From Gammaproteobacteria bacterium (GTDB lineage Bacteria > Pseudomonadota > Gammaproteobacteria > Pseudomonadales > Cellvibrionaceae), in contig JANYIO010000142.1 in assembly GCA_025362015.1 (NCBI GenBank), forward strand, positions 1 to 55,450: a stretch of DNA of 55,450 bases, read 5' to 3'. Within the stretch, counting starts at the first letter, position 1; each line of letters begins with the position of its first letter. The position numbers were made by a program, and so were the translations under genes. The notes beneath the pieces are model-generated. The model was not told the origin of the DNA and made no database searches. It worked only from the letters and a program-made list of their open reading frames with translations. Positions 4,290 to 55,450 of this stretch are shown here, piece by piece.

Positions 4290-4619
4290 ATCGATAAAGT
4301 AATTTAAAAATATAACATCACAAGGACGTGATGAAAAAAAGCTTTATACTCTTTAAGGTTAAGTCTCAACTATCAATATGCCGCAATTACAGAGTCACCT
4401 CATTGTAACAAGTTGTATCAAAGTCTCCTTAATAAAAAATATCATGTTAGGCTACTCACCGAGAGATTGGGCTTAGCCTGCAGGGTATCCCGAAATCGAA
4501 ACCGTGATTTAACGCAGTCAATAATTCATAGCATTAGTGCATTCCAGCGGATAATATGACGCTTCTGTAAAGCCCAGCGCCATCAATTACCCAAACACAC
4601 ATGATCCAGGAGCGAACAC
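4290..4619. other. 330-bp spacer after the lysis pair
   Basis: No coding region is supported. A CATCAC/GTGATG hairpin lies near 4317-4334 but is followed by A rather than T on the plus strand. AGGAG (about 4608-4612) serves the gene at 4620. I see no convincing promoter. Confidence 0.4.
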
Positions 4620-7003: not shown

Positions 7004-7059
7004 TGCCAACTCACCATTTTAATTTTTATGAAGAGGTTTTTTTATTTGTCTTCGGCTCT

Positions 7060-39915: not shown

Positions 39916-40252
39916 CCGCTCCTTAGGTTTATGGCTTTCGAAATACAACCTACTTTGACTATAGAAATGAAGTAGTCTGGAATGGTTAGGACTTCACACC
40001 TGCGGTTAGGTTCCAACTTTCAACGCCACACAGACAAGATTTGTATCCCCACTATCGACTCCATTCGTACAGGAGAAAGATATTAAGACCCGTACAAGAA
40101 TTAACAAACAAGAGTTGCAATCAATTTTTTGCGCGCTATTATAAAGAGAGACTATAGTGCTTAAAACGGCTTTCCTTTTAAGGTAGCTTTCTGTTTAAAT
40201 AAGTTGTAGTCTGGATTGGCTGTATTACATATTTTAACCGTGGAGAAATATC
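39916..40252. other. 337-bp spacer with a promoter for the small Lys-rich gene
   Basis: No other gene is visible. A sigma-70 promoter is plausible at 40115-40142 (TTGCAA, 16-bp spacer, TATTAT), giving a leader of about 100 bases. The 14-mer GTAGTCTGGAATGG at about 39972 recurs as GTAGTCTGGATTGG at about 40206, once on each side of the promoter. GGAG (40242-40245) serves ATG 40253. Confidence 0.45.
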
Positions 40253-40366
40253 ATGAGTAAAGCTCAAGACAGTAAAAAAGAAACCAAGAAGCCTGCTGCA
40301 AAAACCATGAAAGAAAAACACGATGCAAAAAAAGTCAAAAAAGCAGAAAAAGCCCGTCAAGAATAA
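40253..40366 (+). CDS. Small Lys-rich protein, 37 residues
   Basis: ATG at 40253 is preceded by GGAG at 8-bp spacing and the frame ends with TAA at 40364-40366. The product begins MSKAQDSKKETKKPAAKTMK and is about one third Lys, with Ala and Glu, no hydrophobic core and no Cys. It should be disordered and very basic. Small 'MSK..DSKK..KK.PAKT.KEK' proteins recur in gammaproteobacterial genomes as hypothetical genes, from memory. It has its own candidate promoter and a strong terminator, which supports real expression. A nucleic-acid or ribosome partner is only a guess from charge. Confidence 0.75.
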   Translation: MSKAQDSKKETKKPAAKTMKEKHDAKKVKKAEKARQE

Positions 40367-40394
40367 TGATGGGATTTGCTAAGATCATGGTAAC

Positions 40395-40428
40395 AATGAC
40401 CTTTGGTAACCTTTAACCAAAGGTCATT
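40395..40428. terminator. Terminator after the small Lys-rich gene
   Basis: AATGACCTTTGGT (40395-40407) and its perfect 13-bp complement (40416-40428) around an 8-nt loop; tail CCTCTCCTTATT. It is 28 bp past the stop. Confidence 0.75.
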
Positions 40429-40496
40429 CCTCTCCTTATTCTCATTTCCCCTATTCCTTCGCAACCACTCCACTGACATTAAGCTTGGGTGTGCAC

Positions 40497-41129
40497 TCAA
40501 TGGCTCGAACTGGTGTTGCTAACGGTTGAAGCTACAGGCGTTTGCACAGGAAGTGAATTTAATTGCTCAAGTGTTTTTTTGGCAAGGAAGTTACCGCCTT
40601 GAGTGGAAAGCTGCAAATATTTTTTCGCTTCTGGTAATTTTTTCTGATAGATTTTTAATTGTGCGTAATTATTAAAAAGACGAGCTTGAGAATTTTTGGA
40701 TAATTTATCGGAATGCTCCAACGCTTTAGTAAAATAGGTGTCCGCATTGTCATACTGCCCATCAAGAAAAAATGCCCAGCCTATAGAATTATCCAAGGTG
40801 GGATCCTGAATACTTAAACGAGTTTTTAATTTTTCTGCATCCAGCAATTTTACAATTGCATCTTTTGTTTTCCCCATATCGGCATAGGCTAATCCAAGGT
40901 TATAGATTGCCCGATAATAATTGGGATTTTGTTGCGTAAGATCAACCAGTTGTTTTGTTGCATCACTAAGATTGCCCTGTCTGCGCAAGTCGACTATCGC
41001 ATTTAATTTATCCACCTGCACTTGTTCTATATTATTTTGATATTTGTCTTGCGCATATATATTTAATGGCAATGCAATACTGAGAATTAATAATGCCGGC
41101 AATGAAAAATATTTAATTGGGATCATCAT
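40497..41129 (-). CDS. Exported TPR-repeat protein
   Basis: The start is ATG 41129: GAGG lies 6 bases upstream and the signal peptide (ending 'LNIYA|QDK') follows well. About 210 residues. TPR-like helices: 'NAIVDLRRQGNLSDATKQLVDLTQQNPNYYRAIYNLGLAYADMGKTKDAIVKLLDAEKL', 'SIGWAFFLDGQYDNADTYFTKALEHSD' and 'NNYAQLKIYQKKLPEAKKYLQLS'. It should be a periplasmic scaffold. Its start overlaps the end of the upstream 2-TM gene by 17 bases, so the two are translationally coupled and probably act together. Confidence 0.75.
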   Translation of the reverse strand: MMIPIKYFSLPALLILSIALPLNIYAQDKYQNNIEQVQVDKLNAIVDLRRQGNLSDATKQLVDLTQQNPNYYRAIYNLGLAYADMGKTKDAIVKLLDAEKLKTRLSIQDPTLDNSIGWAFFLDGQYDNADTYFTKALEHSDKLSKNSQARLFNNYAQLKIYQKKLPEAKKYLQLSTQGGNFLAKKTLEQLNSLPVQTPVASTVSNTSSSH

Positions 41130-41619
41130 AGCCGACCTCATGAGTGCCATTTTTTAACTGGTTGTGCGCAAACACCAAATCAGTTTGCATTTTGTTAAAG
41201 CTTTTCAATAGTGCGCCAAGCTCAACCGAGATAACGTCTTTATCTTGAACTTTAATCGCAACATCGCCGAAATCACCGATAGAAATATCCTGTGCTTTAA
41301 ACACAAGATGCGGCTTTGAATCTTTGGTCAAATCAGAATAATTGGAGATTTTAACCCCGATATTACTTTCGTGATTTCCGGCAATTTTAAAAATCTCTAA
41401 CCCACCCGTCAAAAGCGTTACAGATAGACTAATAATTAAAAAAAATTTAATGGAGGCGTGTCTTCTTTGATATTCCTTTTCCTGTGCAAGACTTGTAGGC
41501 GGAGGCGCTTGAAGCTGTATTACATATAAAGAATAGCCGTTCCACAACCCAAACATACCAACACCTGCCAGGCCTGTTTGTGCAATGGAAACAATAAGAT
41601 TCGGATCAATGATACCCAT
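41113..41619 (-). CDS. Uncharacterised two-helix membrane protein
   Basis: Not recognised. The 168 residues have membrane helices at about 8-33 and 56-78, a short loop between with 'QAPPPTSLAQEKEYQRRH', and a soluble C-terminal domain (about 85-160: 'VFKAQDISIGDFGDVAIKVQDKDVISVELGALLKSF'). GAGGG lies 7-8 bases before the ATG. It is coupled to the TPR gene downstream, which suggests a joint envelope function. Confidence 0.6.
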   Translation of the reverse strand: MGIIDPNLIVSIAQTGLAGVGMFGLWNGYSLYVIQLQAPPPTSLAQEKEYQRRHASIKFFLIISLSVTLLTGGLEIFKIAGNHESNIGVKISNYSDLTKDSKPHLVFKAQDISIGDFGDVAIKVQDKDVISVELGALLKSFNKMQTDLVFAHNQLKNGTHEVGYDDPN

Positions 41620-41792
41620 AATATTCCCTCGTTTTTGTGTGGATGATTAACCTTAGCAACGCTTAATGCCTACATCACATTCATAGGTTTAACAAATAAA
41701 ATAACACAAACAAAAGATTTGCAGAACAAATAAGGATATGAATATTTTTCTATGGCGCAAAAATCATTATTGCTGTGAAATTACAAGAGATG

Positions 41793-41829
41793 AACCAACT
41801 GACCAGAATTTCAATCTGGCCAGTTGGTT
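41793..41829. terminator. Hairpin terminator after the 41841 lipoprotein gene
   Basis: AACCAACTG-A-CCAGA pairs with TCTGG-C-CAGTTGGTT (one mismatch) around a 7-nt loop. It lies 12 bp past the lipoprotein stop on the minus strand; the T-run is short. Confidence 0.6.
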
Positions 41830-41840
41830 ATTGTTGCAGA

Positions 41841-42353
41841 TTATAGATTTTTGTAATTAGCTTCATTCTTTTTTGCTTTCTCAAGCGCTTTACCGGGTAA
41901 GGGTTTTGTTTTTAATTTATCAACGGTCATGGCTTTTAATTTTTTGTTCCATTCTGGAATTCTCTCATCGGACGTATCTGCCACCCCTAGATTCATGAAC
42001 CCAAACCCAGTATTTGGTTTAATATAATAGACTCTGTTAGCACCTACCTCTATATTCATATATGCCCAAGCACCACCTTGTGTTGGATCAATCATAAAAC
42101 AATGCTTACCAGGACTAGCGACGTATTGGATCATAGCGCCTGATTCAAGCGTACCGACAAAATTAGATCCATCCCACACTTCGAAATCCACGCCGTCACC
42201 TATAAATATATGTGGGCGAACAAAATTAACGAGCGCCTTTTCAGTATTGGTGTTGCTAATTTTTTCTGCAGGTTTCATAACGGCAAGACTAGAACAACCA
42301 GAAAGAACAATTGGCAACAACACTAACGCGCATTTAAAGATAAAATTTTTCAT
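41841..42353 (-). CDS. Lipoprotein, DUF2846-like
   Basis: The 170 residues begin with a lipoprotein signal, lipobox 'LSGC' (Cys20). The body reads 'KALVNFVRPHIFIGDGVDFEVWDGSNFVGTLESGAMIQYVASPGKHCFM' and 'YMNIEVGANRVYYIKPN', a beta-sandwich resembling DUF2846 envelope lipoproteins. A Lys-rich C-terminus follows. AGGA lies 9 bases before the ATG. Function is unknown. Confidence 0.72.
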   Translation of the reverse strand: MKNFIFKCALVLLPIVLSGCSSLAVMKPAEKISNTNTEKALVNFVRPHIFIGDGVDFEVWDGSNFVGTLESGAMIQYVASPGKHCFMIDPTQGGAWAYMNIEVGANRVYYIKPNTGFGFMNLGVADTSDERIPEWNKKLKAMTVDKLKTKPLPGKALEKAKKNEANYKNL

Positions 42354-42422
42354 GATATGTTCCTAAAATTTATTATGCTATTAAGTAAAGACCGAAGCCT
42401 TGGTTAGTTCCTATTTTTCATG

Positions 42423-44681
42423 TCATGCTTTTACTCTTACGCAATCCACAAAATAACCTTTCTTGCCATCGACTTCGCGTTTTACCAAGCCGTGAACGTC
42501 AGTTTCAAAGCCAGGAAATTTTTCATTAAAATCGCGCGCGAATTTTAAATAATCAACGATGGTTTTGTTGAAACGTTCGCCGGGAATTAATAATGGAATA
42601 CCTGGCGGATAAGGCGTTAATAAAATTGAAGTGATGCGGCCTTCAAGTTCGTCGATAGGTACGCGGTCGATTTCGCGGTGCGCCATCATTGCAAAAGCAT
42701 CTGAAGGTTTCATCGCCGGCTGCATATCAGACAAATACATTTCTGTCGTTAAACGCGCGACGCCATAAGCTTTGTAAGTTTCATGAATTTGCTGACATAA
42801 ATCGCGCAAACCTAAACGCTCGTAGCGTGGATTCGCGGCGGCAAATTCTGGAAGAATGCGCCACATGGGTTGGTTTTTATCGTAGTCGTCTTTGAATTGC
42901 TGCAGCGCTGTCAGCAAGGTATTCCAGCGGCCTTTAGTGATGCCAATGGTAAACATAATGAAGAATGAATAGAGGCCACATTTCTCAATAATTACGCCAT
43001 TTTCAGCGAGGTATTTAGTCACGATAGAAGCGGGAATACCGGTTTCGCTGAACTTACCATCCACTGATAACCCGGGGTTGATAATGGTGGCTTTAATAGG
43101 ATCAAGCATATTGAAACCAGTGGCCAATTTACCAAAGCCATGCCAGTTGTCTTCACTGCGCAATACCCAATCATCACGCTCGCCAATGCCGTCTTCAGAA
43201 AACTCTTCTGGCCCCCAAACCTGGAACCACCAGTCTTGACCCCATTCGGCGTCTACTTTTTTCATAGAACGGCGGAAATCGAGCGCTTCTAAAATAGATT
43301 CTTCAACCAGCGCAGTACCGCCAGGTGCCTCCATCATGGCCGCAGCTACATCGCAGGAAGCGATAATAGAATATTGCGGCGAGGTAGAGGTATGCATCAA
43401 ATAGGCTTCATTAAAAGCATCTTGATCCAGCTTCACAGTTTCAGATTCGCGCACCAAAATTTGCGAGGCCTGCGACAAACCAGCGAGTAATTTATGCGTA
43501 GATTGTGTGGAAAAAATCATCGACTCTTTAGCGCGTGGACGATCTTTACCAATAGCATGCATGTCTTTATAAAAATCATGGAAGGTCGCGTGCGGCAGCC
43601 AGGCTTCGTCAAAATGCAGAGTGTCAATTTTACCATCAAGCATTTCTCTTAAGGTTTCGACGTTGTAAATCACGCCGTCATAAGTGGACTGTGTAATCGT
43701 TAAAATGCGCGGCTTTTTATTGACTGCAACGCGAGCAAAAGGGTTAGCTTCAATTTTGCGCGCAATGCTTTCAGGAGTGAATTCTTCTAACGGAATTGGC
43801 CCGATAATCCCCAGATGATTGCGTGTAGGCATCAAAAATACCGGAATCGCGCCGCACATAATGATCGAATGCAAAATTGATTTATGGCAGTTACGATCAA
43901 CTACAACAATATCTCCCGGCGCTACCGTTGAGTGCCACACCATCTTGTTGGAAGTTGAGGTACCGTTAGTCACAAAGTAACAGTGATCGGCGTTAAAAAT
44001 ACGCGCAGCATTGCGTTCCGATGCAGCGATGGGGCCAGTGTGATCAAGCAATTGACCAAGCTCTTCAACCGCGTTGCAAACATCCGCACGCAGCATATTT
44101 TCACCAAAAAATTGATGAAACATTTGCCCGATAGGCGATTTCAAAAATGCCACGCCGCCGGAGTGACCAGGGCAGTGCCAGGAGTAGGAGCCATCGTTTG
44201 CGTAATGCACCAAAGCGCGAAAAAATGGTGGCGCCAAGCCATCCAAATAAGATTTTGCTTCACGAATAATATGGCGCGCCACAAATTCCGGAGTGTCTTC
44301 AAACATATGAATGAAGCCATGTAGCTCACGCAAAATATCGTTAGGGATATGGCGCGAGGTACGGGTTTCGCCGTAAAGATAAATCGGAATGTCGGCGTTT
44401 TTGTAACGAATTTCTTCCACAAAAGCACGTAATGATTTTAGTGCGTGATCCGTTTCTTCGAGTGAGCCGGCACCAAATTCTTCATCGTCTATCGACAAAA
44501 TAAACGCCGATGCGCGCGATTGTTGTTGCGCAAATTGCGATAAGTCGCCATAGCTAGTCACGCCTAGCACCTCCATCCCCTCTTTTTCCATTGCATCTGC
44601 CAGCGCACGGATACCAAGGCCGGAGGTGTTTTCAGAACGGAAATCTTCGTCGATGATGACAATGGGAAAACGGAATTTCAT
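42423..44681 (-). CDS. PLP-dependent Orn/Lys/Arg decarboxylase (biodegradative arginine decarboxylase-like)
   Basis: From ATG 44681 (GGAG 6 bases upstream) the 752-residue protein shows the three class-I domains. An N-terminal response-regulator-like wing comprises about 1-140. The PLP core has 'SWHCPGHSGGVAFLKSPIGQMFH', 'VTNGTSTSNK', 'LHFDEAWLPHA' and the cofactor Lys in 'STQSTHKLLAG' (Lys397). The C-terminal domain has 'PYPPGIPLLIPGE'. 'DGVIYNVE' and the length favour an arginine-type enzyme, but Arg, Lys or Orn cannot be separated by eye. It makes a polyamine or agmatine and consumes protons. Single-gene unit. Confidence 0.9.
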   Translation of the reverse strand: MKFRFPIVIIDEDFRSENTSGLGIRALADAMEKEGMEVLGVTSYGDLSQFAQQQSRASAFILSIDDEEFGAGSLEETDHALKSLRAFVEEIRYKNADIPIYLYGETRTSRHIPNDILRELHGFIHMFEDTPEFVARHIIREAKSYLDGLAPPFFRALVHYANDGSYSWHCPGHSGGVAFLKSPIGQMFHQFFGENMLRADVCNAVEELGQLLDHTGPIAASERNAARIFNADHCYFVTNGTSTSNKMVWHSTVAPGDIVVVDRNCHKSILHSIIMCGAIPVFLMPTRNHLGIIGPIPLEEFTPESIARKIEANPFARVAVNKKPRILTITQSTYDGVIYNVETLREMLDGKIDTLHFDEAWLPHATFHDFYKDMHAIGKDRPRAKESMIFSTQSTHKLLAGLSQASQILVRESETVKLDQDAFNEAYLMHTSTSPQYSIIASCDVAAAMMEAPGGTALVEESILEALDFRRSMKKVDAEWGQDWWFQVWGPEEFSEDGIGERDDWVLRSEDNWHGFGKLATGFNMLDPIKATIINPGLSVDGKFSETGIPASIVTKYLAENGVIIEKCGLYSFFIMFTIGITKGRWNTLLTALQQFKDDYDKNQPMWRILPEFAAANPRYERLGLRDLCQQIHETYKAYGVARLTTEMYLSDMQPAMKPSDAFAMMAHREIDRVPIDELEGRITSILLTPYPPGIPLLIPGERFNKTIVDYLKFARDFNEKFPGFETDVHGLVKREVDGKKGYFVDCVRVKA

Positions 44682-45136
44682 AGAGGTCTCCAAATAGAGT
44701 TAAACCAGTGAATAGCCAGAATTGTAGCTTCTTTTTTAAGACCACCATTTAGGAAAATAATCCTTAACGACGGCAATCTATAGGCATTGGAAAATTGTGA
44801 AGTGGATTTTCGCAGATATGAGCGGAGTGTGGGGAAAAAATAAGACCATAATTGCCCATGAGGCAAGATTAATTTCCATAAACTCATCTTTCATACAGAT
44901 GGAACAATAATTAACGCAGCTTTAATCCCAGCTTTCGCTAACTCAACTCTAACAGAAACATATACTCAGATAGAATTAAATTTAAGGGCAAAATAATATC
45001 ACCAGATACTCCATAGCTATTTTTGATTGATATTTAATTGACCCAAATACATCTTTCCGCGACTCTTTCGCCCCTATACGCAAAGTTTTATGCAGAACAA
45101 TTTATTGACTTAAGTGTCAATTGCCCGAGGCAAGCC
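44682..45136. other. 455-bp divergent spacer
   Basis: No gene is supported. It separates the decarboxylase from the copper-linked ABC operon. The only clear structure is the palindrome at 45105-45120 next to the ABC operon's ribosome site. I found no convincing promoters. Confidence 0.4.
45105..45120 (+). promoter_or_regulatory. Operator-like palindrome before the ABC/SCO/cupredoxin operon
   Basis: TTGACTTAAGTGTCAA: TTGAC and GTCAA arms separated by 6 bases, with an inner ACTTAAGT palindrome. It lies 16 bp before ATG 45137, next to the GAGG ribosome site. FNR-type boxes have 4 bases between arms, so this is not one. Confidence 0.4.
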
Positions 45137-46198
45137 ATGAATTACGATGATCCAAAAAATGCTGACTTTTTGCTGCGCAGGCGATTGATATTAGGCGTAG
45201 CTGCAGCTGCGGCGGCACTGCCATTCGCTGGATTATCGTCATGTTCCAAAAAAGAAGAGGGTAAAGCCCAACTGCTACAAGTCGGTGGCTTACCAGTAAC
45301 TTGTAACCTCACCTTGCCAGTGGCGTGTACCGCGAAAGCCGCCAGCAATCTCGCGGGCACGGGCGATAACCGCTTTGAGTTTCAATATAGCAAGTACAGT
45401 GGCTGGCCAGAAATCAAGGAATCGCTGATGACTGGCCGTATTCAAGCCGCATATATGCTCGCGCCCTTAGTAATGGATCTGGCAGATAAGAAAGTTCCGC
45501 TTAAAATTGTGTCCCTCGGCCACCGCTCCGGCGCGGTGATTATGGTGAGAACAGACTCTAACTATCAAAGCTTTAGCGAACTTAAAGGTAAACGTATTGC
45601 CATTCCCAGCCGTTTTGCCGTGGATTTTTTGTTCCTGCGGAAAATGCTGGCGAAAGAAAACATGACGCCGAAAGATATTGAAATTGTCGAGATGCCGCCG
45701 CCCGATATGCCCGCCGCGCTCTATGCCAACGCAGTAGATGCCTATTGCACCGGAGAACCGTTTGGCGCCGCCGCTCAACGCGCTGGCTACGCGCGCCCAC
45801 TGCGGATGACCCGCGATGAATGGCGCAATTACATTTGCTGTGTGCTTACTGTACGCGAAGAGTTAATTCATGATAACCCCGCTATGGTGCAGGACTTGGT
45901 CAATCATGTGATGGGTGCTGGCACCTGGCTGGATATAAAACAGGGCAACCGCGATAAGGCGGTGGCAATTGCCGCCAAGCGCGAGTTTTTCAATCAAGAT
46001 CCAAACATTCTCAAATTTGTGATGGAAACCCCCACCGACCGAGTGACTTACGGCGATTTGCGAATGATCAGAGCTGAATTTGAAGACTTAATGCAGCTTT
46101 CGATGGAGGCTGGCACACTCAAACACCCGGTTGCCTATGAAAGTTACATCAATGACAGTTTTGTCAAAAATGCCAAACCGACCACCATTACCCTGTGA
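45137..46198 (+). CDS. NrtA/CmpA-like ABC substrate-binding lipoprotein with Tat-type signal
   Basis: ATG 45137 is chosen for its GAGG 6 bases upstream. The 353-residue protein starts with 'LLRRRLILGVAAAAAALPFAGLSSC', a twin-Arg-like signal joined to a lipobox (Cys near 35). The body is of the NrtA/CmpA/NMT1 type: 'EFQYSKYSGWPEIKESLMTGRIQAAYMLAPLVMDLADKKVPLKIV', 'ELKGKRIAIPSRFAVDFLFLRKML' and 'MPPPDMPAALYANAVDAYCTGEPFGAAAQRAGYARPL'. It is shorter than NrtA and lacks that protein's C-terminal extension. It heads an operon with SCO, cupredoxin, permease and ATPase. The substrate is unknown. Confidence 0.85.
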   Translation: MNYDDPKNADFLLRRRLILGVAAAAAALPFAGLSSCSKKEEGKAQLLQVGGLPVTCNLTLPVACTAKAASNLAGTGDNRFEFQYSKYSGWPEIKESLMTGRIQAAYMLAPLVMDLADKKVPLKIVSLGHRSGAVIMVRTDSNYQSFSELKGKRIAIPSRFAVDFLFLRKMLAKENMTPKDIEIVEMPPPDMPAALYANAVDAYCTGEPFGAAAQRAGYARPLRMTRDEWRNYICCVLTVREELIHDNPAMVQDLVNHVMGAGTWLDIKQGNRDKAVAIAAKREFFNQDPNILKFVMETPTDRVTYGDLRMIRAEFEDLMQLSMEAGTLKHPVAYESYINDSFVKNAKPTTITL

Positions 46199-46257
46199 TG
46201 TACCCTGTGCCTGTGATATGCCCTGTACCATTTCCTGAGATAGTAGAGAAGCCAAAC

Positions 46258-46863
46258 GTGAAACAATTATTCGTGCGCTTAATGCCGTTTTTACTGTGGG
46301 CGGTTGCGGTCAATGCGGCACATAGCGAAGCGCTTAAATCAGGCATTTTCGATCCACCACGACTTGCACCGGACTTCACGCTGCAAAGCTCTAACGGCGG
46401 TGAATTTAAGCTCAGCCAGGCGCGCGGCAAAGTGGTCGTATTGGGTTTTGGTTTTACTCATTGCACAGCAGTCTGCCCCATTACACTCGCTAATCTGGCA
46501 CAAGCGCGCAAAAAGTTAGGCGCTTTAGCCGATGATGTGCAAGTCGTTTACGTCACCGTCGACCCTGAGCATGACGATCCGGCGCGCCTGCACGAGTATC
46601 TCGCCTTTTTTGATCCAACGTTTATTGGTGTCACTGGAACAGACGCACAATTGTCGTTAGTACGGCAGGAGTATGGAATAGTCGCTGGCAAAGTCACCGG
46701 TAAAACTGGCCAGCCTGAGGTACATCATTCGTCTTATATTTATCTGATCGATCGTGCAGGACTTCTGCGTGCGTTGGTCCCCTTCGGCAAAAGCCCTGAC
46801 GATATAGTTCACGATGTGAACATTCTGCTGCTAACAAATCTTGCTGCAAGTAAGGCAGGATAA
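46258..46863 (+). CDS. SCO1/SenC family copper-binding protein
   Basis: The frame is open from ATG 46198, but GTG 46258 gives a proper signal peptide (MKQLFVRLMPFLLWAVAVNA) and the bases between are a short repeat, so GTG is preferred. The thioredoxin-like body has the copper/redox motif 'CTAVC' (Cys69, Cys73), 'VYVTVDPEHDDP' and the third ligand His157 in 'VHHSSYIYLID'. SCO proteins deliver copper to CuA-type sites or reduce their cysteines. Linkage to an ABC importer and a cupredoxin-like protein is unusual and suggests copper-related delivery for this system. Confidence 0.88.
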   Translation: MKQLFVRLMPFLLWAVAVNAAHSEALKSGIFDPPRLAPDFTLQSSNGGEFKLSQARGKVVVLGFGFTHCTAVCPITLANLAQARKKLGALADDVQVVYVTVDPEHDDPARLHEYLAFFDPTFIGVTGTDAQLSLVRQEYGIVAGKVTGKTGQPEVHHSSYIYLIDRAGLLRALVPFGKSPDDIVHDVNILLLTNLAASKAG

Positions 46864-46871
46864 GTAGATTT

Positions 46872-47342
46872 ATGATGTGGATTCGCCGTCATTGGCTGTT
46901 ATTGTTACTGCTCAATCTGGTGTTTGATGCCGTTATTTTAATGGCTCTAGTACCCATACGCATCGAATCACGCGAAGAAGTTTTTGAAATCCCAACAGGT
47001 ACCTGGGCGCGGCGGATGGCGGGCGAAAAAATCGAAATTCTTCCCCAAGCAGTCTATCTCGCGCTTGGCGTCAGGGATGTATTAGTGCTGCGCAATCTCG
47101 ATACAGTGCCGCAGATTTTTGGCCCCACCCTGATTATGCCCAATCAAAGTTTTAAACTTCCTTTCGAATTGGCATCCGATTACCAGTTTGCCTGTACCGC
47201 GCATTTGAGCGGACAAATGACGGTGGTGGTTGACCCTGAACCAACGCTCGGCTGGTCGCGATTGGTATGGCGAGTAAAAACGTTAACGCGACACTTACCC
47301 ACAACTAAAATAGCCGAAACGAAAATAGCCACGCAAAAATAA
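46872..47342 (+). CDS. Membrane-anchored cupredoxin-like protein
   Basis: The 156-residue protein has an N-terminal membrane helix (about 8-28) and a cupredoxin-like domain (about 60-120). The domain ends with 'YQFACTAHLSGQMTVVV', the C-x2-H-x4-M ligand loop of type 1 copper sites (Cys108, His111, Met116). The first-ligand position, expected as His before the 'FGPTLIMP' turn, reads 'VPQIFGP', so the N-terminal His seems replaced by Gln81. It lies 8 bp after the SCO gene and 55 bp before the permease. A periplasmic copper carrier or binding partner is inferred. Confidence 0.7.
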   Translation: MMWIRRHWLLLLLLNLVFDAVILMALVPIRIESREEVFEIPTGTWARRMAGEKIEILPQAVYLALGVRDVLVLRNLDTVPQIFGPTLIMPNQSFKLPFELASDYQFACTAHLSGQMTVVVDPEPTLGWSRLVWRVKTLTRHLPTTKIAETKIATQK

Positions 47343-47397
47343 CTACAAAAGTACATCAGAAAACCCTATAAGTGCTCCACAATAAAAAGGTATCCAT

Positions 47398-48156
47398 GTG
47401 TTAAAACTAAAACAGACGCTGCCCCCGCTGGCAGTATTAGGATTGTTAATTGCGGTCTGGTGGCTAGTGGTCGTTAAAACCGAATCTGCTATTTTCCCGA
47501 CTCCACTGCAAGTGGTCACCGGCACATTGGAACTGGTAAAAGACGGCTCCTTATGGGAGCACATAGGCTCATCGCTAATGCGTGTTGGCGCCGGCTTTTT
47601 GTTAGCGGTTGTCGTTGCCATTCCACTTGGGCTATGGATGGGGCGCGTTGAAGGCGCATACATAACCCTCAACCCTATTTTCCAAATACTGCGCCCTATT
47701 TCCCCCATCGCCTGGATTCCGCTGGCGATTTTGTGGTTTGGCGTAGGCAACGCTTCGCCCATTTTTCTCATCTTTATCGCCTCAGTTTTTCCAATGATTG
47801 TGCAGACCGCTGCTGGCGTGCACACCATTGAGCAGCGCTACCTCAGGGCGGCGGAGAACTTTGGTGTTTCGCGCTATAAACTCTTTACCCAAGTCATCAT
47901 TCCGGCGGTTTTACCAGAGATGATCGTCGGCATGCGCATTTCGCTCGGCGTTGCCTGGCTCGTAGTCGTTGCCGCCGAAATGATCGCGCTGCGTTCAGGC
48001 CTGGGCTACTTAATTATGGATTCACGCAATGCCGGCAACCGCTATGACCTCGTCATCGCCGGCATGATTATCATCGGTATCATTGGACTGTTATTGGACG
48101 GCTTAATGCGACTTCTGGAAGGGCTTAAATCAGTAAGGTGGCGTTATGGTCGATAA
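47398..48156 (+). CDS. ABC transporter permease (NitT/TauT-type)
   Basis: The 252-residue protein starts at GTG 47398, 7 bases after AAAAAGG. About six membrane helices with the BPD_transp_1 hallmark 'GVHTIEQRYLRAAENFGVSRYKLFTQVIIPAVLPEMIVGMRISLGVAWLVVVAAEM'. This is the SsuC/TauC/NrtB style. The gene overlaps the ATPase start by 11 bases, so the two are coupled. It is shorter than the NrtB at 17018 and is a separate system. Confidence 0.9.
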   Translation: MLKLKQTLPPLAVLGLLIAVWWLVVVKTESAIFPTPLQVVTGTLELVKDGSLWEHIGSSLMRVGAGFLLAVVVAIPLGLWMGRVEGAYITLNPIFQILRPISPIAWIPLAILWFGVGNASPIFLIFIASVFPMIVQTAAGVHTIEQRYLRAAENFGVSRYKLFTQVIIPAVLPEMIVGMRISLGVAWLVVVAAEMIALRSGLGYLIMDSRNAGNRYDLVIAGMIIIGIIGLLLDGLMRLLEGLKSVRWRYGR

Positions 48157-48886
48157 GATTGTTATCAAAGATATCAAAAAGAGTTTTGTCTCTGGTAAAG
48201 AAACTCTCGCAGTGGTTGGCGGACTTAGCCTAACCGTTGGCGAAGGCGAGTTTGTCGCTATAGTCGGGCCATCGGGCTGCGGCAAATCAACACTGATGAA
48301 AATCATCGCAGGCTTCGAACAGCCCGATTCAGGCCATGTTGCAGTTGATGGCGTGTTGCGCAAAGGCCCCAATGCCAACGGCATAGTTATTTCCCAACAT
48401 GGGTCAGTGTTTCCCTGGCTGAACGTGCAACAAAATCTAATGTTTGGCCTCAACGGCAACGAGCACGGCGACAAAGCCGCACTCGCTGATCACTATGCAG
48501 CGATGGTCGGGCTGAAAGGCTTCGAGCAAAATTATCCCCATGAACTTTCGGGCGGGATGTTGAAGCGTGTGGAAATTGCGCGCGCATTAGTGGTGAAGCC
48601 AGAAATTTTGTACATGGATGAACCCTTCTCCGCATTGGATGCATTAATGAATTTACGCATGCGTACAGAGTTGTTGCGTATTTTGGAGGAAGAGCGCCAC
48701 ACGGTATTGCTGATTACGCACGATGTTGAAGAAGCCATCCATTTGGCCGATCGGATTATTGTGCTTTCACCGCGCCCAGCCAGTATTCAGGCTGTGTTTG
48801 AAGTTCCATTCAAACATCCACGCAAATTATCAACTCCCGAAGCACAAACTTTGAAGGATGATATTTTGCGCGAGCTTGGAATTTAA
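48146..48886 (+). CDS. ABC transporter ATPase (NitT/TauT-type)
   Basis: The 246-residue ATPase has Walker A 'GPSGCGKST' (41-49), Q-loop 'VISQHGSVFPWLNVQQNL', signature 'LSGGMLKRVEIARAL', Walker B 'ILYMDEPFSALDAL' and H-loop 'LITHDVEEA'. It pairs with the overlapping permease. It is the last gene of the five-gene unit; I see no strong terminator immediately after. Confidence 0.92.
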   Translation: MVDKIVIKDIKKSFVSGKETLAVVGGLSLTVGEGEFVAIVGPSGCGKSTLMKIIAGFEQPDSGHVAVDGVLRKGPNANGIVISQHGSVFPWLNVQQNLMFGLNGNEHGDKAALADHYAAMVGLKGFEQNYPHELSGGMLKRVEIARALVVKPEILYMDEPFSALDALMNLRMRTELLRILEEERHTVLLITHDVEEAIHLADRIIVLSPRPASIQAVFEVPFKHPRKLSTPEAQTLKDDILRELGI

Positions 48887-49076
48887 TCCACAGAAATTTA
48901 ATCTAGTTGAAACGCCGTTTACTTTTGTATTTACATCGGACCAAACAGCAAATTCATGATTTTGGCTAACAAAATGAAAACGGCGGTCTACCGGCCCGGA
49001 AATGAAAACATAGACGGAAACGAAAAGATAGATTGTATAATTGAACGACCCAATTTCGGCGCGGGTTTCTTCGAGA

Positions 49077-49131
49077 TTAGTGCACTAAAAATAATTAGTA
49101 CACTACGCTTGGCGTTAGCGGCTTCGCCAAG
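49077..49131. repeat. Twin near-palindromes and hairpin beside the pyruvate-kinase remnant
   Basis: TTAGTGCACTAA (49077-49088) is a perfect 12-bp palindrome. TTAGTACACTA (49095-49105) is a near copy 18 bp later. Then CTTGGCG (49108-49114) pairs with CGCCAAG (49125-49131). This compact set lies at the truncated end of the remnant, so it may belong to a small repeat or an operator. Confidence 0.5.
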
Positions 49132-49567
49132 TATATGGAGCCATTACGCGCACCCTACGCTCAGAGCCAACAGAGCCCAACCGGCTTTCGTTATGATTTA
49201 GCCAACTTTGACTAAATTTGATTTCCGTGACGTTGCCTGACGGAAACCCGATCGATTTACTAAGTCTATGCAAGGCTCTGAGCGTGGCATCAAGTGCCGC
49301 TAAAACGTGCGACTCAGCCCGCCCGAAAGAGGAAAGCCCAAGTTCAGCCAAGCTGAATTGTAACGGACGCAGATCTCGCCGACGCAACGCCAAATAGTGA
49401 AGCAGATTGCGCGCACTGGCTTGATGGCTAGGGTGAACTTTGGCAAGACGCGCAGCACCTCTAACCTCTTCGGAAATCATATCCGCGCGAATAGCGCTTA
49501 GCTCTTTGAAGAGTCGCTGAATATCTAAAAATTTTGAAGAATCATGAACATCAATATTTTTTTGCAT
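49115..49567 (-). pseudogene. Truncated N-terminal fragment of a pyruvate-kinase-like gene
   Basis: Residues about 15-103 ('IRADMISEEVRGAARLAKVHPSHQASARNLLHYLALRRRDLRPLQFSLAELGLSSFGRAESHVLAALDATLRALHRL' in substance) match the extra N-terminal region of a proteobacterial class of pyruvate kinases. The catalytic barrel that should follow is missing. After residue 103 the frame runs into about 47 unrelated, Arg/Ser-rich residues and stops at 49115. No barrel sequence is visible downstream. The break therefore lies near 49255-49260. It may be a gene-decay scar; a functional short domain is less likely. Confidence 0.6.
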
Positions 49568-49726
49568 GATGAAACACCCTCTTAACGAGCCGAAGGAAGA
49601 TCGACTCCATATGAGGATGCGCTAACAATATTAATTGAATCTGTTCGTTATGCCACACAAAATTAAATTAAAAATTGCTGCTGCACATCTGAATCATGCA
49701 AATGTAATTTATTAAATGCTTCCTAA

Positions 49727-50440
49727 TTAAATGCTTCCTAATTGTTGATGCAAGCCATAAGTCATTAAACTTAAAAAAACCACCAACCCTAAATACAGCA
49801 ACCCATAATTAATACGATCATTAATCGATGCTTTGTAATAGTGTTCACCTGCGGCGATTTGTTCTGCGCTCGGCCATAGCGCTTGTTTGATTTGGGGATA
49901 TGCGAGTACGGCAATTAAAATCAACATCGGGCTGGGACTGTAAATAAACAACCCAATCAAAATGGGCACTCCAAGGAGCCATACCTTCGGGGAAATAATG
50001 GCCGTAATGCGGCCACCATCAAGCGGGGAAACGGGAATCAAATTAAATAAATTGAGCATAAAGCCAGAGTAGGCCAACGCCATTAATAAGTGGCTACTTT
50101 GTTCTCTCGCAACAAAATAAACCGCAAGCGCCGCAGCAGAGCCGGCAATTGGGCCGGCAAAACCAATGTAAGCTTCTGTCTCAACATCCATTGGCGTTTC
50201 TTTCAGCTGAATCCACGCGCCTACAAAGGGAATAAACGTAGGGGCACCCACATCCAAACCGCGTTGGCGTGCAGCTACGTAATGGCCCAACTCATGAAAT
50301 AACAACAGCAATACAAAACCGACCGCATAGGGCCAACCAAAAATCCAGGAGTACACAACCATAGAAATAATCATTGACCCGCAGGTCAACAACAACTTCC
50401 CAAATTTACCTGCGGTCAACAATGCCAATAGCAACTTCAT
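49727..50440 (-). CDS. M50-family site-2-protease-like membrane metalloprotease
   Basis: The 237-residue polytopic membrane protein has the zinc motif 'FHELGHY' (His49, Glu50, His53) in a membrane helix and the third-ligand region 'NLFNLIPVSPLDGGR' (Asp141). These are the M50 hallmarks. There is no PDZ domain, so this is the short type. The cleaved substrate is unknown. It follows the DUF2167 gene by 29 bp and is probably co-transcribed with it. Confidence 0.88.
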   Translation of the reverse strand: MKLLLALLTAGKFGKLLLTCGSMIISMVVYSWIFGWPYAVGFVLLLLFHELGHYVAARQRGLDVGAPTFIPFVGAWIQLKETPMDVETEAYIGFAGPIAGSAAALAVYFVAREQSSHLLMALAYSGFMLNLFNLIPVSPLDGGRITAIISPKVWLLGVPILIGLFIYSPSPMLILIAVLAYPQIKQALWPSAEQIAAGEHYYKASINDRINYGLLYLGLVVFLSLMTYGLHQQLGSI

Positions 50441-50469
50441 AATGATTCACTTTAAAAAATTGCTATTCA

Positions 50470-51402
50470 TTAATCTTGAGATTTTTTCCCCAGGAATTTT
50501 TTTACATAAGCACCAACTGCGACCACACCGACAATAATAATTTTTTTCAATACCAGCAACATACCGAAAAGTTTTGCAAACAACCCCAATTTCGCGGCAA
50601 TACCGCCGGCAACCAAAGCGGCTAAACCGTATTCTGCAACGTGATCTGTTTTACTATCAAAATCACCGTATTGATTGCCAGCAGTAAATTCTGTAGCGGC
50701 CAATACGGCTGGCATTTCGGATTTTATTTGATTTATTTGCTCCATGCTGGCGATAGCATTGAGCACCAAAACACCTTTGCGACCCAACACTCTAATGTTG
50801 TAATTTAATGAGTTGGGGCCTTTCGTTACTGCATATTCTTTTGCCCAATACATTTTCCGAGTTTGCTTGTCATAACGTGGCGGCTCTGCCCAACCCACTA
50901 GCAACATAGAACCATAACCTTGTTTGATGCGTTCTGCATTATTTTCCTCGCTTTCTTTTTTCATGTCGGCGAGAAGCTTATCGTAATTGATTTCATCAGC
51001 ATCAGTATCTTTCACATAACCATCTTCGTCATAAGAAATTACCACACCCCAACCATCCTCACCCAGCGGACTGGTGTTAGCAGGCAGAACCATACCGAGA
51101 GTTTTGTTGCCAGGAGGATTACCCCAAGCTTCAACCAATAATCGTTCTGCATCTTCTGGTGAAATGTAGCGAAATTTCTCTGACAAATTAAGTGTCGCTA
51201 CACCACCCGGTAAATTAATTTTGCCATTCTGAAAATGCAAGGATGCTAAAAAATCTGCACCGCTTTGCGTGGCCGCAGGTTTATCAGCAGTTGTTTGATC
51301 AGCTTGCGAATCTGTGCTTGGTGCTGGGTCGGTAGGTAATGCTTGAACTGAGGTATTGAACGTACAAAGTAGGGTTATTATGAAGAGGATATTTTTAAGC
51401 AT
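50470..51402 (-). CDS. DUF2167 membrane protein
   Basis: The 310 residues have a signal peptide (to about 21), a low-complexity Thr/Asp/Gln linker (22-50), a domain with 'YISPEDAERLLVEAWGNPPG', 'LGMVLPANTSPLGEDGWGVVISYDEDGYV' and 'KMYWAKEYAVTKGPNSLNYNIRVLGRKGVLVLNAIASMEQI', the DUF2167 signature, and two C-terminal membrane helices ending in a Lys-rich tail. Function is unknown. Its partner downstream is the M50 protease. Confidence 0.88.
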   Translation of the reverse strand: MLKNILFIITLLCTFNTSVQALPTDPAPSTDSQADQTTADKPAATQSGADFLASLHFQNGKINLPGGVATLNLSEKFRYISPEDAERLLVEAWGNPPGNKTLGMVLPANTSPLGEDGWGVVISYDEDGYVKDTDADEINYDKLLADMKKESEENNAERIKQGYGSMLLVGWAEPPRYDKQTRKMYWAKEYAVTKGPNSLNYNIRVLGRKGVLVLNAIASMEQINQIKSEMPAVLAATEFTAGNQYGDFDSKTDHVAEYGLAALVAGGIAAKLGLFAKLFGMLLVLKKIIIVGVVAVGAYVKKFLGKKSQD

Positions 51403-51616
51403 GTGACATTCCCTTTAATATTTTTTGACAGTAGTGTTAGTTAATCTGGCGCCGCAATCAACGCAATTTACTTTTTATCATTTACTTGAGATAAAAGCAA
51501 TTTAAAACCTTGTCTGCAAACCTATGCTTACAAACCTAAATCGCTCAACCCGGGATGGGCTTCTGGCCTACCCCCTAAAGGCCAATGAAATTTTCGCTCA
51601 CTTTCGTTGCGCATTA

Positions 51617-52240
51617 TCAATTCACAGCTGAAGTATGTACACAAATGCCAGGCATGGATTTATAACCGGGCAACGCCTCTATACACGTAAACCATTTCTC
51701 AATGGCAGGATAAAGACTGATATCAACATGACCTTCATTCGCAAGCGCGAGGTAAGGGTAAAGCGCAAGATCCGCAATGGTGATTTGCGTTGTTACCAAC
51801 CACTCATGCTCACTTAGATGGGTGTTTAACACATTCAATAAGTGCGCAGTAATTTTTGTTGCATCATCGACATTAATATCGCGCCCAAATTTATGATGCA
51901 AGCGCAGTGCATTAGGGCCGCGGGTTATTTCGTTAGCGGCGACAGAAAACCATGCGGTGATTTGTGTGAGCGCAAGCGTGTTATCAATCGGAAACCACTG
52001 CGATCCACCATAAGTTCGCGCGAGATAAACTAAAATCGCCTGACTATCGCGAATAACGATTTCGCCATCGATTAACACCGGCACTTGCCCAAACGAATTC
52101 AATGCCAAAAAATCAGCGGATTTATGTTCGCGCTCGCTGCCATTTATCATGTGGCTTTTATATTCCAGCTTTAAGAAGGATAACAGCAAACGGATTTTGT
52201 GGCAGTTACCGGACAACGCAAATTCATAAAGTGTAATCAT
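51617..52240 (-). CDS. Glutathione S-transferase family protein
   Basis: The 207-residue protein has an N-terminal thioredoxin-like domain ('[23 protein letters not shown]', '[32 protein letters not shown]', where 'QVPVL' and 'DSQAI' bind glutathione) and a C-terminal helical domain with the '[14 protein letters not shown]' N-capping box. AAGGAG lies 8 bases before the ATG. It is the third gene of a unit with the VanB-type reductase and the old yellow enzyme, which points to detoxification of electrophiles or aromatic compounds. Confidence 0.9.
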
Positions 52241-52258
52241 AATTTACTCCTTGAAAAG

Positions 52259-53251
52259 TTATAAATCTAAAACAAGGCTTTCACTTTTAGCGCGCGACAC
52301 ACAAATACATATCATGCCCTCGGCACGGTCTTTATCACTCAACACATGATCGCGATGCTCAGCTTCGCCTTCAAGAATTTTTACTGCGCAAGTGCCGCAA
52401 TCGCCAACACAGCAATCAAAAGCAACGGTTATACCCGCATCGCGCATCGCCGCTAATATAGGTTGATCTGGTGCAACTCGAATTAATTTATTGGAGCGCG
52501 CCAGCTCCACAATCACTGGCTTATCTTGCACATCTTTTACTACGCCAAACTGTTCGCTTTGAATGCGATCTTTGGTTATACCTAGCAATGTTGCAAAATT
52601 ATAAACTTCATCTATTAATTTCTGCGGCCCACACACATAAAATAGTGCGTTACCTGACGCATCAGAAAGTAAATGCATTATGTTCATCCGTTTATTTTCA
52701 TTCGCAGGATACGCAACATAATTATTTGCATACTCACGCGATAAGTGATCGCTAAACGCCATTTCTTTTAAACTTCGACCGGCATAATGTAATTGAAAAC
52801 GACGACCACGTGCAGCCAGTACTTGTGCCATAGGCTTTATAGGTGTAATGCCAATGCCAGCCGCAATCAAAATTGCGGGGCTGGTATCTGCATGTAATTC
52901 AAAATGGTTATCGGGTAATGCGCAATTGAGCTGCAAACCTAAAAAATAATTATCGTGTATTGCCTTGGAACCTCCGCGACCACTTTCTTCGCACAACACT
53001 GCAATTTCATACATATCGCGACGCGCAGGGTTAGAACAAACAGAATATTGCCGCAGTTCGGTTTTCCCATTATTCATTAACACTGGAATTGATAAATGCG
53101 CACCAGCAGTAATCAAGGGCAAATCGTGTCCTTCAGGATCACGCAATTCATAAGCACGAATACGCGGCGTGAGCTGGCGAACCGCACTAATAACTAAAGC
53201 GAGGTTTGAGTCATCACGCCTAACTGAAAACCCAGGTGTTGTGTAGGGCAT
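52259..53251 (-). CDS. PDR/VanB-type flavin-[2Fe-2S] oxidoreductase
   Basis: The 330-residue protein has the phthalate-dioxygenase-reductase order. The FMN domain has 'RQYSVCSNP' (67-75), the NAD domain 'AAGIGITPIKPMAQVL' (130-145) and 'YVCGP', and a C-terminal plant-type ferredoxin domain has Cys280, Cys285, Cys288 ('CCVGDCGTC') and Cys317. It passes NAD(P)H electrons to a partner oxygenase or demethylase. No oxygenase subunit is in the window; the neighbour upstream is an old yellow enzyme, and it starts 8 bp after that gene. Confidence 0.92.
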   Translation of the reverse strand: MPYTTPGFSVRRDDSNLALVISAVRQLTPRIRAYELRDPEGHDLPLITAGAHLSIPVLMNNGKTELRQYSVCSNPARRDMYEIAVLCEESGRGGSKAIHDNYFLGLQLNCALPDNHFELHADTSPAILIAAGIGITPIKPMAQVLAARGRRFQLHYAGRSLKEMAFSDHLSREYANNYVAYPANENKRMNIMHLLSDASGNALFYVCGPQKLIDEVYNFATLLGITKDRIQSEQFGVVKDVQDKPVIVELARSNKLIRVAPDQPILAAMRDAGITVAFDCCVGDCGTCAVKILEGEAEHRDHVLSDKDRAEGMICICVSRAKSESLVLDL

Positions 53252-53259
53252 GGAGTTAA

Positions 53260-54333
53260 TTAACCCGCCACAGGATAATCGGTGTAACCCGCGGCACCTG
53301 CTGAATAGTGAGTATTTTGATCCGACTCAGCCAGCGGCAAATTTTCTTGCATGCGCAAAATTAAATCCGGGTTGCCAATAAAAGGTCGGCCAAAAGCGAC
53401 AAGATCAGCCTGCCCTGCTTTCAATATTGCTTCAGCACTTTGCGCATTGAATCCGCCTGATGCGATAAATAAACCTTTAAATGTAGCGCGTAATTTTGCC
53501 TTAATTTGTGCAGGCACTTCGGGTGCACCCATGGCTGAATGATCTACTAAATGCAGATACACAAGACCAATTTCAGAAAGCTCTTGCGCGAGGCTAAGAT
53601 ATTGCCCCTCTACACCCTCGAACGCCCCGGTGCTGTTAAATACACCATAGGGTGATAGGCGAATGCCGACGTGGTCAGCACCAATTGCAGCGACGCAAGC
53701 GCGTGCAACGTCGAGAGTTAAACGATTGCGAGCAGCGGGGCTACCACCATAACCATCGCTGCGAGTATTAACATTAGCATTCAAAAATTGCTCAAGTAAA
53801 TAACCATTCGCGGCATGAAGCTCTATTCCATCGAACCCCGCTTTAATTGCCAGCTTGGCCGCATTTGCATACTCGGCGACAACATTTTTCAGTTCAATTT
53901 CACTAAGCACATGTGGCTTAGCGTGCGGCTGCTTACCCAGGCTGTCCGTGTACATTTCACCCGGACAAATTTCAGCTGTTGGGCCAACCACACGTGCACC
54001 AGCCGGCAAATTAGCGCTCGCAGAAACACGGCCTGTGTGCATCAATTGAAGAAATATTTTTGCTCCCTCGCGATGCACAGCTTGAGTAACAAGTTGCCAA
54101 CCCTCAGCTTGCGCGTTATTAAATAAGCCAGGAATTCGCGCATAGCCCAAGCCATCCACAGAGGGTGATGTACCTTCGGTAATAATTAACCCCGCACTCG
54201 CGCGCTGGCCATAATATTCAGCCATTAACGCATTAGGTGTATTGCTATCAACTGCACGACAACGAGTCATCGGTGCCATTACGATACGATTTTGTAATTT
54301 AAGACGAGGGTATTCGAGCGGATTAAATAACAT
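53260..54333 (-). CDS. Old yellow enzyme-type alkene reductase (NemA-like)
   Basis: The 357-residue FMN enzyme has 'NRIVMAPMTRCRA', 'LIITEGTSPSVDGLGYARIPGL', 'IFLQLMHTGRVS', the substrate pair His173/Asn176 in 'IELHAANGYLLEQFLN', 'SDGYGGS' and 'DLVAFGRPFIGNPDL'. It reduces activated C=C bonds with NAD(P)H, including N-ethylmaleimide-type electrophiles. The start has 'GAGAAG' upstream. It heads the unit oye-vanB-gst. Confidence 0.92.
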   Translation of the reverse strand: MLFNPLEYPRLKLQNRIVMAPMTRCRAVDSNTPNALMAEYYGQRASAGLIITEGTSPSVDGLGYARIPGLFNNAQAEGWQLVTQAVHREGAKIFLQLMHTGRVSASANLPAGARVVGPTAEICPGEMYTDSLGKQPHAKPHVLSEIELKNVVAEYANAAKLAIKAGFDGIELHAANGYLLEQFLNANVNTRSDGYGGSPAARNRLTLDVARACVAAIGADHVGIRLSPYGVFNSTGAFEGVEGQYLSLAQELSEIGLVYLHLVDHSAMGAPEVPAQIKAKLRATFKGLFIASGGFNAQSAEAILKAGQADLVAFGRPFIGNPDLILRMQENLPLAESDQNTHYSAGAAGYTDYPVAG

Positions 54334-54514
54334 AGCAGCTTCTCTAGTTGGGATCGCAACTAGACAGATGGGGACGAATTTACCAAATTAAAAGGGCTGC
54401 ACCATAAGGTTTAAAACGTCCTTTGCTAAAATGATCATCCCTAAACGAACATCCTTAAACGAGCATCATTAAACGACCAAGGGATCACCTTGGCCGCTCA
54501 CATTTCTCTACCGG

Positions 54515-55186
54515 CTAGCGGGTATAAAGACCCGTTATTTCAACCTTTTGAATGATGGCATTGGCAAATTGCGTTTCAAATTCACTGCGTTCGTACGGGC
54601 GAGTAGTACTAACAGCGATTTTCGCTGTGTTTAACGCGTAAAGTGCAAAAAAGTAATGATGTGTACCGGTACCTGGGGGCGGGCATGGGCCTTCATAATT
54701 TACCCCTTCAACACTCCCCAGTGGCATAGTGCGCAGGGACGCATCTTCGGCTATTTGACGCACATCCGCGGGAATATGATAAACATTCCAGTGAACATAG
54801 GGGTGACCTACGATGGCAATAGCGTCAAGATCTTCAACAATAAGGGCAAAGCTCTGAATCTCTGCCGACGTTATTTCCCATTGCAACTGAGGGCTGATTT
54901 TGGAACCATCACACGTATATTTAACAGGGATGACTTCACCCGACGTAAAACTGTTTGATGTGAGCGTGAAGGGAATACTGCTCGCTGATGAGCTGCTCGT
55001 GCTTGTCATGCTTGATGCATCAGATAAACTTGAACTACTTGAACTAGAAGAGCTAACGGAAGATACAGTTGCAGAAGACGAAGGGCTGCTGGCCGGCACT
55101 GGTGGGCTGCTAGTTTTATGGGCACCGCCACCGCCACATCCAACCAAAAAAGTCATAAGTACAATTGAAAGAAAATGATATCTCAT
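54515..55186 (-). CDS. PEBP (YbhB/Raf-kinase-inhibitor-like) lipoprotein with polyserine linker
   Basis: From ATG 55186 (AAGG 8 bases upstream) the 223-residue protein has a lipoprotein signal with 'FLVGC' lipobox, a Gly-rich tether, a polyserine linker of about 50 residues, and a PEBP domain: 'GEVIPVKYTCDGSKISPQLQWE', 'SFALIVEDLDAI', 'VHWNVYHIP' and 'YEGPCPPPGTGTHHYFFALYAL', the phosphate/anion-pocket motifs of YbhB/YbcL. Polyserine linkers are common in secreted proteins of plant-cell-wall-degrading marine and soil gammaproteobacteria. The role is unknown. Confidence 0.88.
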   Translation of the reverse strand: MRYHFLSIVLMTFLVGCGGGGAHKTSSPPVPASSPSSSATVSSVSSSSSSSSSLSDASSMTSTSSSSASSIPFTLTSNSFTSGEVIPVKYTCDGSKISPQLQWEITSAEIQSFALIVEDLDAIAIVGHPYVHWNVYHIPADVRQIAEDASLRTMPLGSVEGVNYEGPCPPPGTGTHHYFFALYALNTAKIAVSTTRPYERSEFETQFANAIIQKVEITGLYTR

Positions 55187-55360
55187 AGAGCAAGCCTTGA
55201 AAGAAAGATTCGGGGCTTGCAACTTATCCTTAGCTAAACTTTAAGAAGTCCTCTTCGATAAAAGATGACTTGAGAAGAATGCGCTTAATCATTTTAATGG
55301 GCAGCTAGCAATAAGGAGTTAACCCTATATTGATTCGGCGAAACGCCCAGACTTTCTATA

Positions 55361-55390
55361 AAAAACTCGGCCGCAAGCGACCGAGTTTTT
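55361..55390 (-). terminator. Terminator of the right-edge minus-strand gene
   Basis: AAAAACTCGG, 10-nt loop, CCGAGTTTTT: a perfect 10-bp stem with A/T runs on both sides, able to work on either strand. It overlaps the stop codon of the partial gene. Confidence 0.85.
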
Positions 55391-55450
55391 AGAAGAGCCC
55401 CAGCTGCTTACTGTTTTCTTCACCTTTGTTCATAACGTCAAGTTGGTTTT
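55389..55450 (-). CDS. Unidentified gene, last 19 codons only
   Basis: The minus strand reads NQLDVMNKGEENSKQLGLF then TAA (complement of 55389-55391), with the frame open to the window edge. A strong terminator lies right at the stop, which supports a real gene end. The fragment is too short to name. Confidence 0.5.
   Translation of the reverse strand, partial: NQLDVMNKGEENSKQLGLF

Follow-up and report, generated by a model that had tools for sequence, protein, structure and literature searches.

What does an ATP-binding cassette (ABC) importer carry when two copper-type proteins are encoded in the midst of its genes? The question is raised by positions 45137-48886 of a 55,450-nucleotide stretch of DNA from a member of the Cellvibrionaceae, hereafter called the window, which is contig C172 of a genome of 328 contigs. 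Pfam and NCBIfam scans placed five genes there, all on the forward strand: an NMT1_2 binding protein comes first, followed by proteins of the SCO1/SenC and cupredoxin-like types and then by the permease and the ATPase of an ABC transporter. The substrate-binding protein (SBP), permease and ATPase belong to the same families as those of the NitT/TauT importers SsuABC, TauABC, NrtABCD and CmpABCD, but unlike these importers the operon has SCO and cupredoxin genes between the SBP and permease genes. The copper link of the operon is well supported. The reading of the five genes as a single conserved operon for copper acquisition, with an ABC transporter that would import copper or a copper complex, was given about an even chance; copper as the substrate, the direction of transport, the order of hand-over and regulation by copper are what we infer.

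The order of the five genes on one strand, and an 11-bp overlap between the permease (47398-48156) and ATPase (48146-48886) genes, were confirmed as originally predicted, and the overlap (48146-48156, forward strand) was of equal length in all nine loci compared. Between the SCO and cupredoxin genes there is an overlap of 1 or 4 bp in eight of the nine loci and, in the window, a gap of 8 bp; a promoter scan gave seven candidate promoters, which did not exceed the shuffled sequences (mean 6.0, standard deviation 2.7). A separate promoter for the SCO and cupredoxin genes is therefore unsupported. A search of positions 40000-55450 of the window against Rfam gave no match.

The cupredoxin profile matched 8 of the 21 genus genomes, counting that of the window, and in all eight the five-gene order was complete. 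The same order was found in L013, a contig of a metagenome-assembled genome titled Acidobacteria, in which the SBP, SCO protein and cupredoxin are 66%, 50% and 57% identical to those of the window. The order is thus not limited to one strain. When six genus loci were compared gene by gene, the five operon genes were the only ones common to all; the outer flanks vary, with a decarboxylase in the window, MoeA in G051 (and a homologue in G095) and other genes elsewhere. At family level, searches with the single cupredoxin sequence gave matches in seven of 100 genomes (own genome included), one of which, a weak match in G076 (E 6.7e-4, with internal stops), was dropped as spurious, and at phylum level in two of 398, the own genome and G391. 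The cupredoxin profile matched only the own genome among 369 of the class, and among the 19 genomes of the order to which the genome of L013 belongs the cupredoxin was present in that genome alone. A plasmid search with the cupredoxin gave no match. Since the order is kept in eight genus genomes and in L013 while the flanks differ and the searches elsewhere gave sparse results, the five-gene unit is real, conserved and sparsely spread. The SBP frame of G1192 is short (278 amino acids), and this assembly is 85% complete. In L013, a small open reading frame (ORF) with one CxxCH-type heme motif and no Pfam match (4050-4421) directly follows the ATPase gene.

The suggested copper link of the operon gained support from two features upstream of it in related genomes, a divergent OprC/NosA-type receptor gene in three of the eight genus loci and a shared dyad. 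In G033, G073 and G1192 the immediate neighbour of the SBP gene is a divergently transcribed gene for a TonB-dependent copper receptor (TIGR01778), scoring 729 and 737 bits in the first two (cut-off 472). The TIGR01778 cut-off was exceeded in four of the 21 genus genomes, these three and G093, so that three of the four receptors stand beside the operon. All four contain a CxxxM and an HxM motif 180 residues apart, as in OprC (oprC-PA3789 of Pseudomonas aeruginosa). According to the available text on OprC, Cys143/Met147 and His323/Met325 bind ionic copper (PMC8610252).

The exact dyad ATAG-N7-CTAT occurred nine times in 187,457 bases from eight sources, and seven of these sites lie upstream of the SBP gene, two each in G033, G073 and G1192 and one in G091. 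The positions in the upstream regions of G033, G073, G091 and G1192 are 7737 and 7819 in L016, 11842 and 11922 in L018, 7774 in L017, and 8379 and 8459 in L092. In the three loci with a receptor gene the paired dyads are 80-82 bp apart and lie between the divergent genes. An extended form of the dyad, ATAGRYTYWRDCTATG, was found eight times in the 21 genomes, seven times upstream of the operon, and the reversed pattern used as a control was not found at all. The extended form was built from the seven operon sites, which match by construction, and so only the scarcity of other sites counts as evidence. The paired arrangement between divergent genes, together with this scarcity, points to a common regulator that may act on both receptor and operon in these loci. 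We take the dyad to resemble LysR/OxyR boxes; no regulator gene was recognised adjoining the dyad loci. A dyad in G1193, beside an ORF read as a CYTH-type protein, the next gene presumably being TatC, was taken as chance.

The third gene (46872-47342) encodes a membrane-anchored protein that had been described as cupredoxin-like, for which no Pfam or NCBIfam match was obtained at E <= 0.001. In an AlphaFold2 model (mean predicted local distance difference test score, pLDDT, 70.6) the top structure matches were cupredoxins, three of them at E <= 0.001; purple cupredoxin 5fc9 gave E 3.7e-4 and amicyanin 1.1e-3. By sequence there was a weak match to amicyanin (E 0.0096). The description thus holds by fold and weakly by sequence. 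The motif C108-X2-H111-X4-M116 is invariant in the seven proteins aligned, although one canonical ligand of the His-Cys-His-Met set of a type 1 copper site is replaced, as discussed below. The only homologue with a clear score beyond the genus and L013, in G391 (L019, 9652-10125), is 41% identical and has nearly the reverse pattern of ligands, the first His and a Cys being present and the following His and Met absent. As it stands alone, it was rejected as a member of the system and regarded only as a relative of the protein.

The second gene encodes a periplasmic SCO1/SenC protein, as had been proposed (PF02630, 132 bits, cut-off 22.8). Residues C90 and C94 of the CxxxC motif as well as H177 and H178 are invariant in the seven proteins aligned (numbering from a start at 46195). 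The start itself did not hold: because the orthologues begin at GTG 46258, this codon is more likely to be the start, giving a predicted gene at 46258-46863. SCO proteins are also known from enzyme assembly, and according to the accessible parts of the literature ScoI is an oxidase-assembly chaperone (PMC12914433), and nitrous oxide reductase maturation involves an ABC transporter, NosDFY, working with the copper chaperones NosL and SenC, including a ScoI homologue (PMC7558416). The SCO and cupredoxin proteins may thus load a periplasmic copper enzyme, while the ABC transporter would import or recycle an organic chelator or thiol and not copper. In line with such a maturation system, the best PDB match of the operon SCO is Blr1131 (121 bits), and the named matches of the SBP are mostly NitT/TauT proteins whose substrates are organic compounds or oxyanions. 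On the other hand, only the five genes are common to the six loci compared, so that no enzyme travels with the operon.

The distribution of COX2, the CuA subunit of cytochrome oxidase, also bears on this alternative. COX2 was found in 14 of the 21 genus genomes, including five of the eight operon genomes, but not in the operon genomes G051 (100% complete), G095 (99%) and G1197 (79%); cbb3 oxidase and other clients were not searched for. As the near-complete operon genomes G051 and G095 show no COX2, a CuA oxidase is not an obligatory client of the operon; another copper enzyme may still be served, as in the original suggestion that uptake is coupled to the loading of such an enzyme. A second SCO gene of the window's genome lies on contig C209, at a distance of about 7.6 kb from COX2, which argues that the operon SCO is not simply the oxidase SCO. 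The co-occurrence data weakened the idea that the operon serves cytochrome oxidase assembly alone, within the limit given above for cbb3 oxidase. Taken as a whole, maturation of a periplasmic copper enzyme is considered unlikely, though it is the foremost of the alternatives to copper import.

All three ABC subunits exceeded the Pfam cut-offs of the families found in NitT/TauT importers (NMT1_2 108, BPD_transp_1 79 and ABC_tran 108 bits), and the matches listed included none in which a subunit exceeded a substrate-specific NCBIfam cut-off (Ssu, Tau, Nrt or Sao). The SBP (45137-46198) scored 118 bits with SsuA (cut-off 163.5), and its closest solved sequences were 3UN6 (122 bits), followed by nitrate and bicarbonate transport proteins. 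It is a lipoprotein with a twin-arginine signal, both Arg being invariant in the seven sequences aligned, and a lipobox-like Cys36 is present in eight of nine SBPs, L013 having a nearby LGC instead. For the ATPase, the highest scores among the best 25 of 188 families were those of ntrCD (198 bits, cut-off 291.8) and SaoA (197 bits, cut-off 360).

These results raise the question of whether the transporter is an ordinary NitT/TauT importer, for a sulfonate, a nitrate-like or another organic anion, whose genes are merely combined in one operon with those for copper proteins, as could happen if all are induced under one condition. Among the matches listed, SBP, permease and ATPase scored best with the SsuA, SaoP, TauC, NtrB and NtrCD models. 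At E <= 1e-30 the SBP profile matched 16 of 347 genomes of the phylum of L013, that of L013 with 680 bits and 15 others with 148-266 bits. Permease and ATPase matches were present nearby in 13 of these 15 loci, no cupredoxin match in any of them, and one had, at its edge, a match to SCO that is distant (22% identity). An ordinary importer is at odds with the presence of SCO and cupredoxin genes inside the operon in nine of nine loci, with the OprC-type receptor beside the operon in three of the eight genus loci, and with the failure of every ABC model to reach its cut-off among the NCBIfam matches listed. It was judged somewhat less probable still than the maturation of a copper enzyme.

The comparison with the acidobacterial relatives was extended to the residues of the SBP. 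Three cysteines, C64, C204 and C234, are invariant in the operon SBPs, and 14 relatives have Asp, Ser/Phe/Val and Ser, respectively, at these positions. Met or Cys makes up nine of the 63 invariant columns specific to the operon SBPs, versus one of 30 the other way. In three of the 14 relative loci the SBP gene is directly followed by a gene for a small HMA-like protein with a TCITC motif (L041, 5760-6062; L042, 7733-8104; L044, 6983-7288). That of L042 matched Pfam HMA with E 2.3e-4 and 21.9 bits, under the cut-off of 24.8. The binding proteins of L041 and L042 have an N-terminal region that reads VTC-x-LTC, and DUF169 genes are present in both loci. Matches to the TCITC pattern in L045 and L051 look like non-coding frames and were dropped. 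The loci with the HMA-like protein were counted in favour of copper acquisition by the operon, and they possibly represent another soft-metal ABC system.

Such loci would also fit an operon that itself transports or detoxifies a different soft metal or an organometal (Ag, Hg or organomercury). SaoAPX is reportedly a predicted selenocysteine-assisted organometallic (SAO) transporter, and its models gave the best permease score and nearly the best ATPase score among the matches listed. In L013, moreover, a gene for a pyridine-nucleotide-disulphide oxidoreductase lies 1.3 kb downstream of the operon. All Sao cut-offs were missed widely, however (permease 184 of 295 bits, ATPase 197 of 360, SBP 49 of 300), and the families to which SCO, cupredoxin and the OprC-type receptor belong are those of copper proteins. 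A role with other soft metals is therefore regarded as improbable, the least probable of the explanations considered.

Several observations weigh against copper import as well. Five of the eight genus operon loci, including the window, have no copper receptor beside the operon, and no TIGR01778 match over the cut-off was found in these five genomes; G093, in turn, holds such a receptor without the cupredoxin. In the window, the intergenic region upstream of the operon (44694-45136) is bounded by a divergent ornithine/lysine/arginine decarboxylase gene and contains no exact ATAG-N7-CTAT; the dyad was likewise not found in G051, G095 and G1197. The operon proteins of G033 and G1192 are 93.8-99.2% identical, and because these genomes are close relatives, the adjacency of the receptor represents about two lineages. 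An unrooted concatenated tree places G091 and G1197 between G073 on one side and G033 with G1192 on the other (support 0.86 and 0.97), and this position suggests that the association of receptor and operon may be old and was later lost in G091 and G1197. The phylum label of L013 rests on the record title and hence on the binning of the metagenome. Further points concern the proteins. In the cupredoxin, Gln81, which is invariant (7/7), stands in place of the first His that a type 1 copper site canonically has. We take Gln81 to be at the position of the first His from the N-x-D-x-x-x-H pattern; perhaps this is an altered copper site, and one that may prefer Cu(I). For the SBP, structure prediction was poor (pLDDT 36), C204 lies within a YC-GEP motif that also appears in the alignment of nitrate proteins, and C234-C235 align with the CC of 3UN6. 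Because of these counterparts in nitrate-type proteins and 3UN6 the cysteines do not single out copper, and as candidate copper ligands they were demoted to weak evidence. C64 alone is matched neither in 3UN6 nor in the 14 relatives, and the nitrate alignment does not reach this residue.

With these points taken into account, the copper-acquisition operon can be given a more specific form, to which we assign slightly less than an even chance: a dedicated, primary-active copper importer of the NitT/TauT family that is fed by a periplasmic SCO/cupredoxin relay and has an OprC-type receptor as its partner in some species, making one genetic unit from the outside to the cytoplasm. Copper would enter the periplasm via the OprC/NosA-type TonB receptor in some relatives and by another route elsewhere. 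Two proteins, the thiol- and copper-binding SCO and the anchored cupredoxin with its Gln/Cys-His-Met site, would reduce or hold the copper and hand it on. The SBP, as a Tat-exported lipoprotein, would then deliver copper, as such or in a small complex, to the permease, which is probably a homodimer since there is a single permease gene, and the ATPase would power import. With the five or six genes of this operon, for an ABC importer, two copper-handling proteins and sometimes a receptor for ionic copper, energised copper import can be tested in an environmental bacterium. If the ABC transporter imports something else, the partnership of SCO and cupredoxin with an ABC importer would still be new.

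The families in this operon are all known, and as far as the open-licence literature shows their combination was not found described: among the matches listed there, no title or abstract reported a NitT/TauT copper importer or SCO and cupredoxin together with NitT. NosDFY is not known to have a NitT/TauT binding protein. No nos genes were recognised among the scanned neighbours of the operon; a search for nos_propeller gave no match in the 21 genus genomes, all 14 controls being silent too. An 'AZY operon' of Escherichia coli is said to be linked to copper uptake, according to a title in the reference list of a 2026 paper. In the available portions of two papers the term 'copper ABC transporter' stands for the genes nosF/nosY (PMC5359404) and for an unspecified component, A1B9T7 (PMC5987163). 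In published operons with OprC or CrtA the partner of the receptor is a PepSY/FoxB-type protein, as far as the accessible text of the two sources goes (PMC8610252, PMC12914433). CrtA is a separate receptor family, and ScoI genes are present in a few crtA operons; in the main text of that source the terms 'ABC transporter' and 'cupredoxin' have no occurrences (PMC12914433). In the thiocyanate dehydrogenase (TcDH) clusters of Thioalkalivibrio, ABC-type transporter genes adjoin that of a copper enzyme; a role in copper acquisition was suggested by the authors (PMC5328954, available text). These clusters differ in having two permeases, two ATPases, copCD and TcDH, and 'SCO1' and 'SenC' do not occur in that text (PMC5328954). 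With no SCO named there and a different ABC composition, the thiocyanate dehydrogenase context was kept for comparison only.

Other features of the window lie at a distance from the operon. A nitrate-type region contains an NMT1_2 binding protein (15511-16935), and the next ORFs were read as a permease and an ATPase. This region is flanked by two fusions of a PP2C phosphatase with a Ser/Thr kinase (5261-7009 on the reverse strand and 19392-21110 on the forward strand). The pair is unusual and possibly linked to nitrate uptake. An endolysin-like protein of phage type, with Glyco_hydro_108 and PG_binding_3 domains, is encoded at 3355-3843 on the forward strand.

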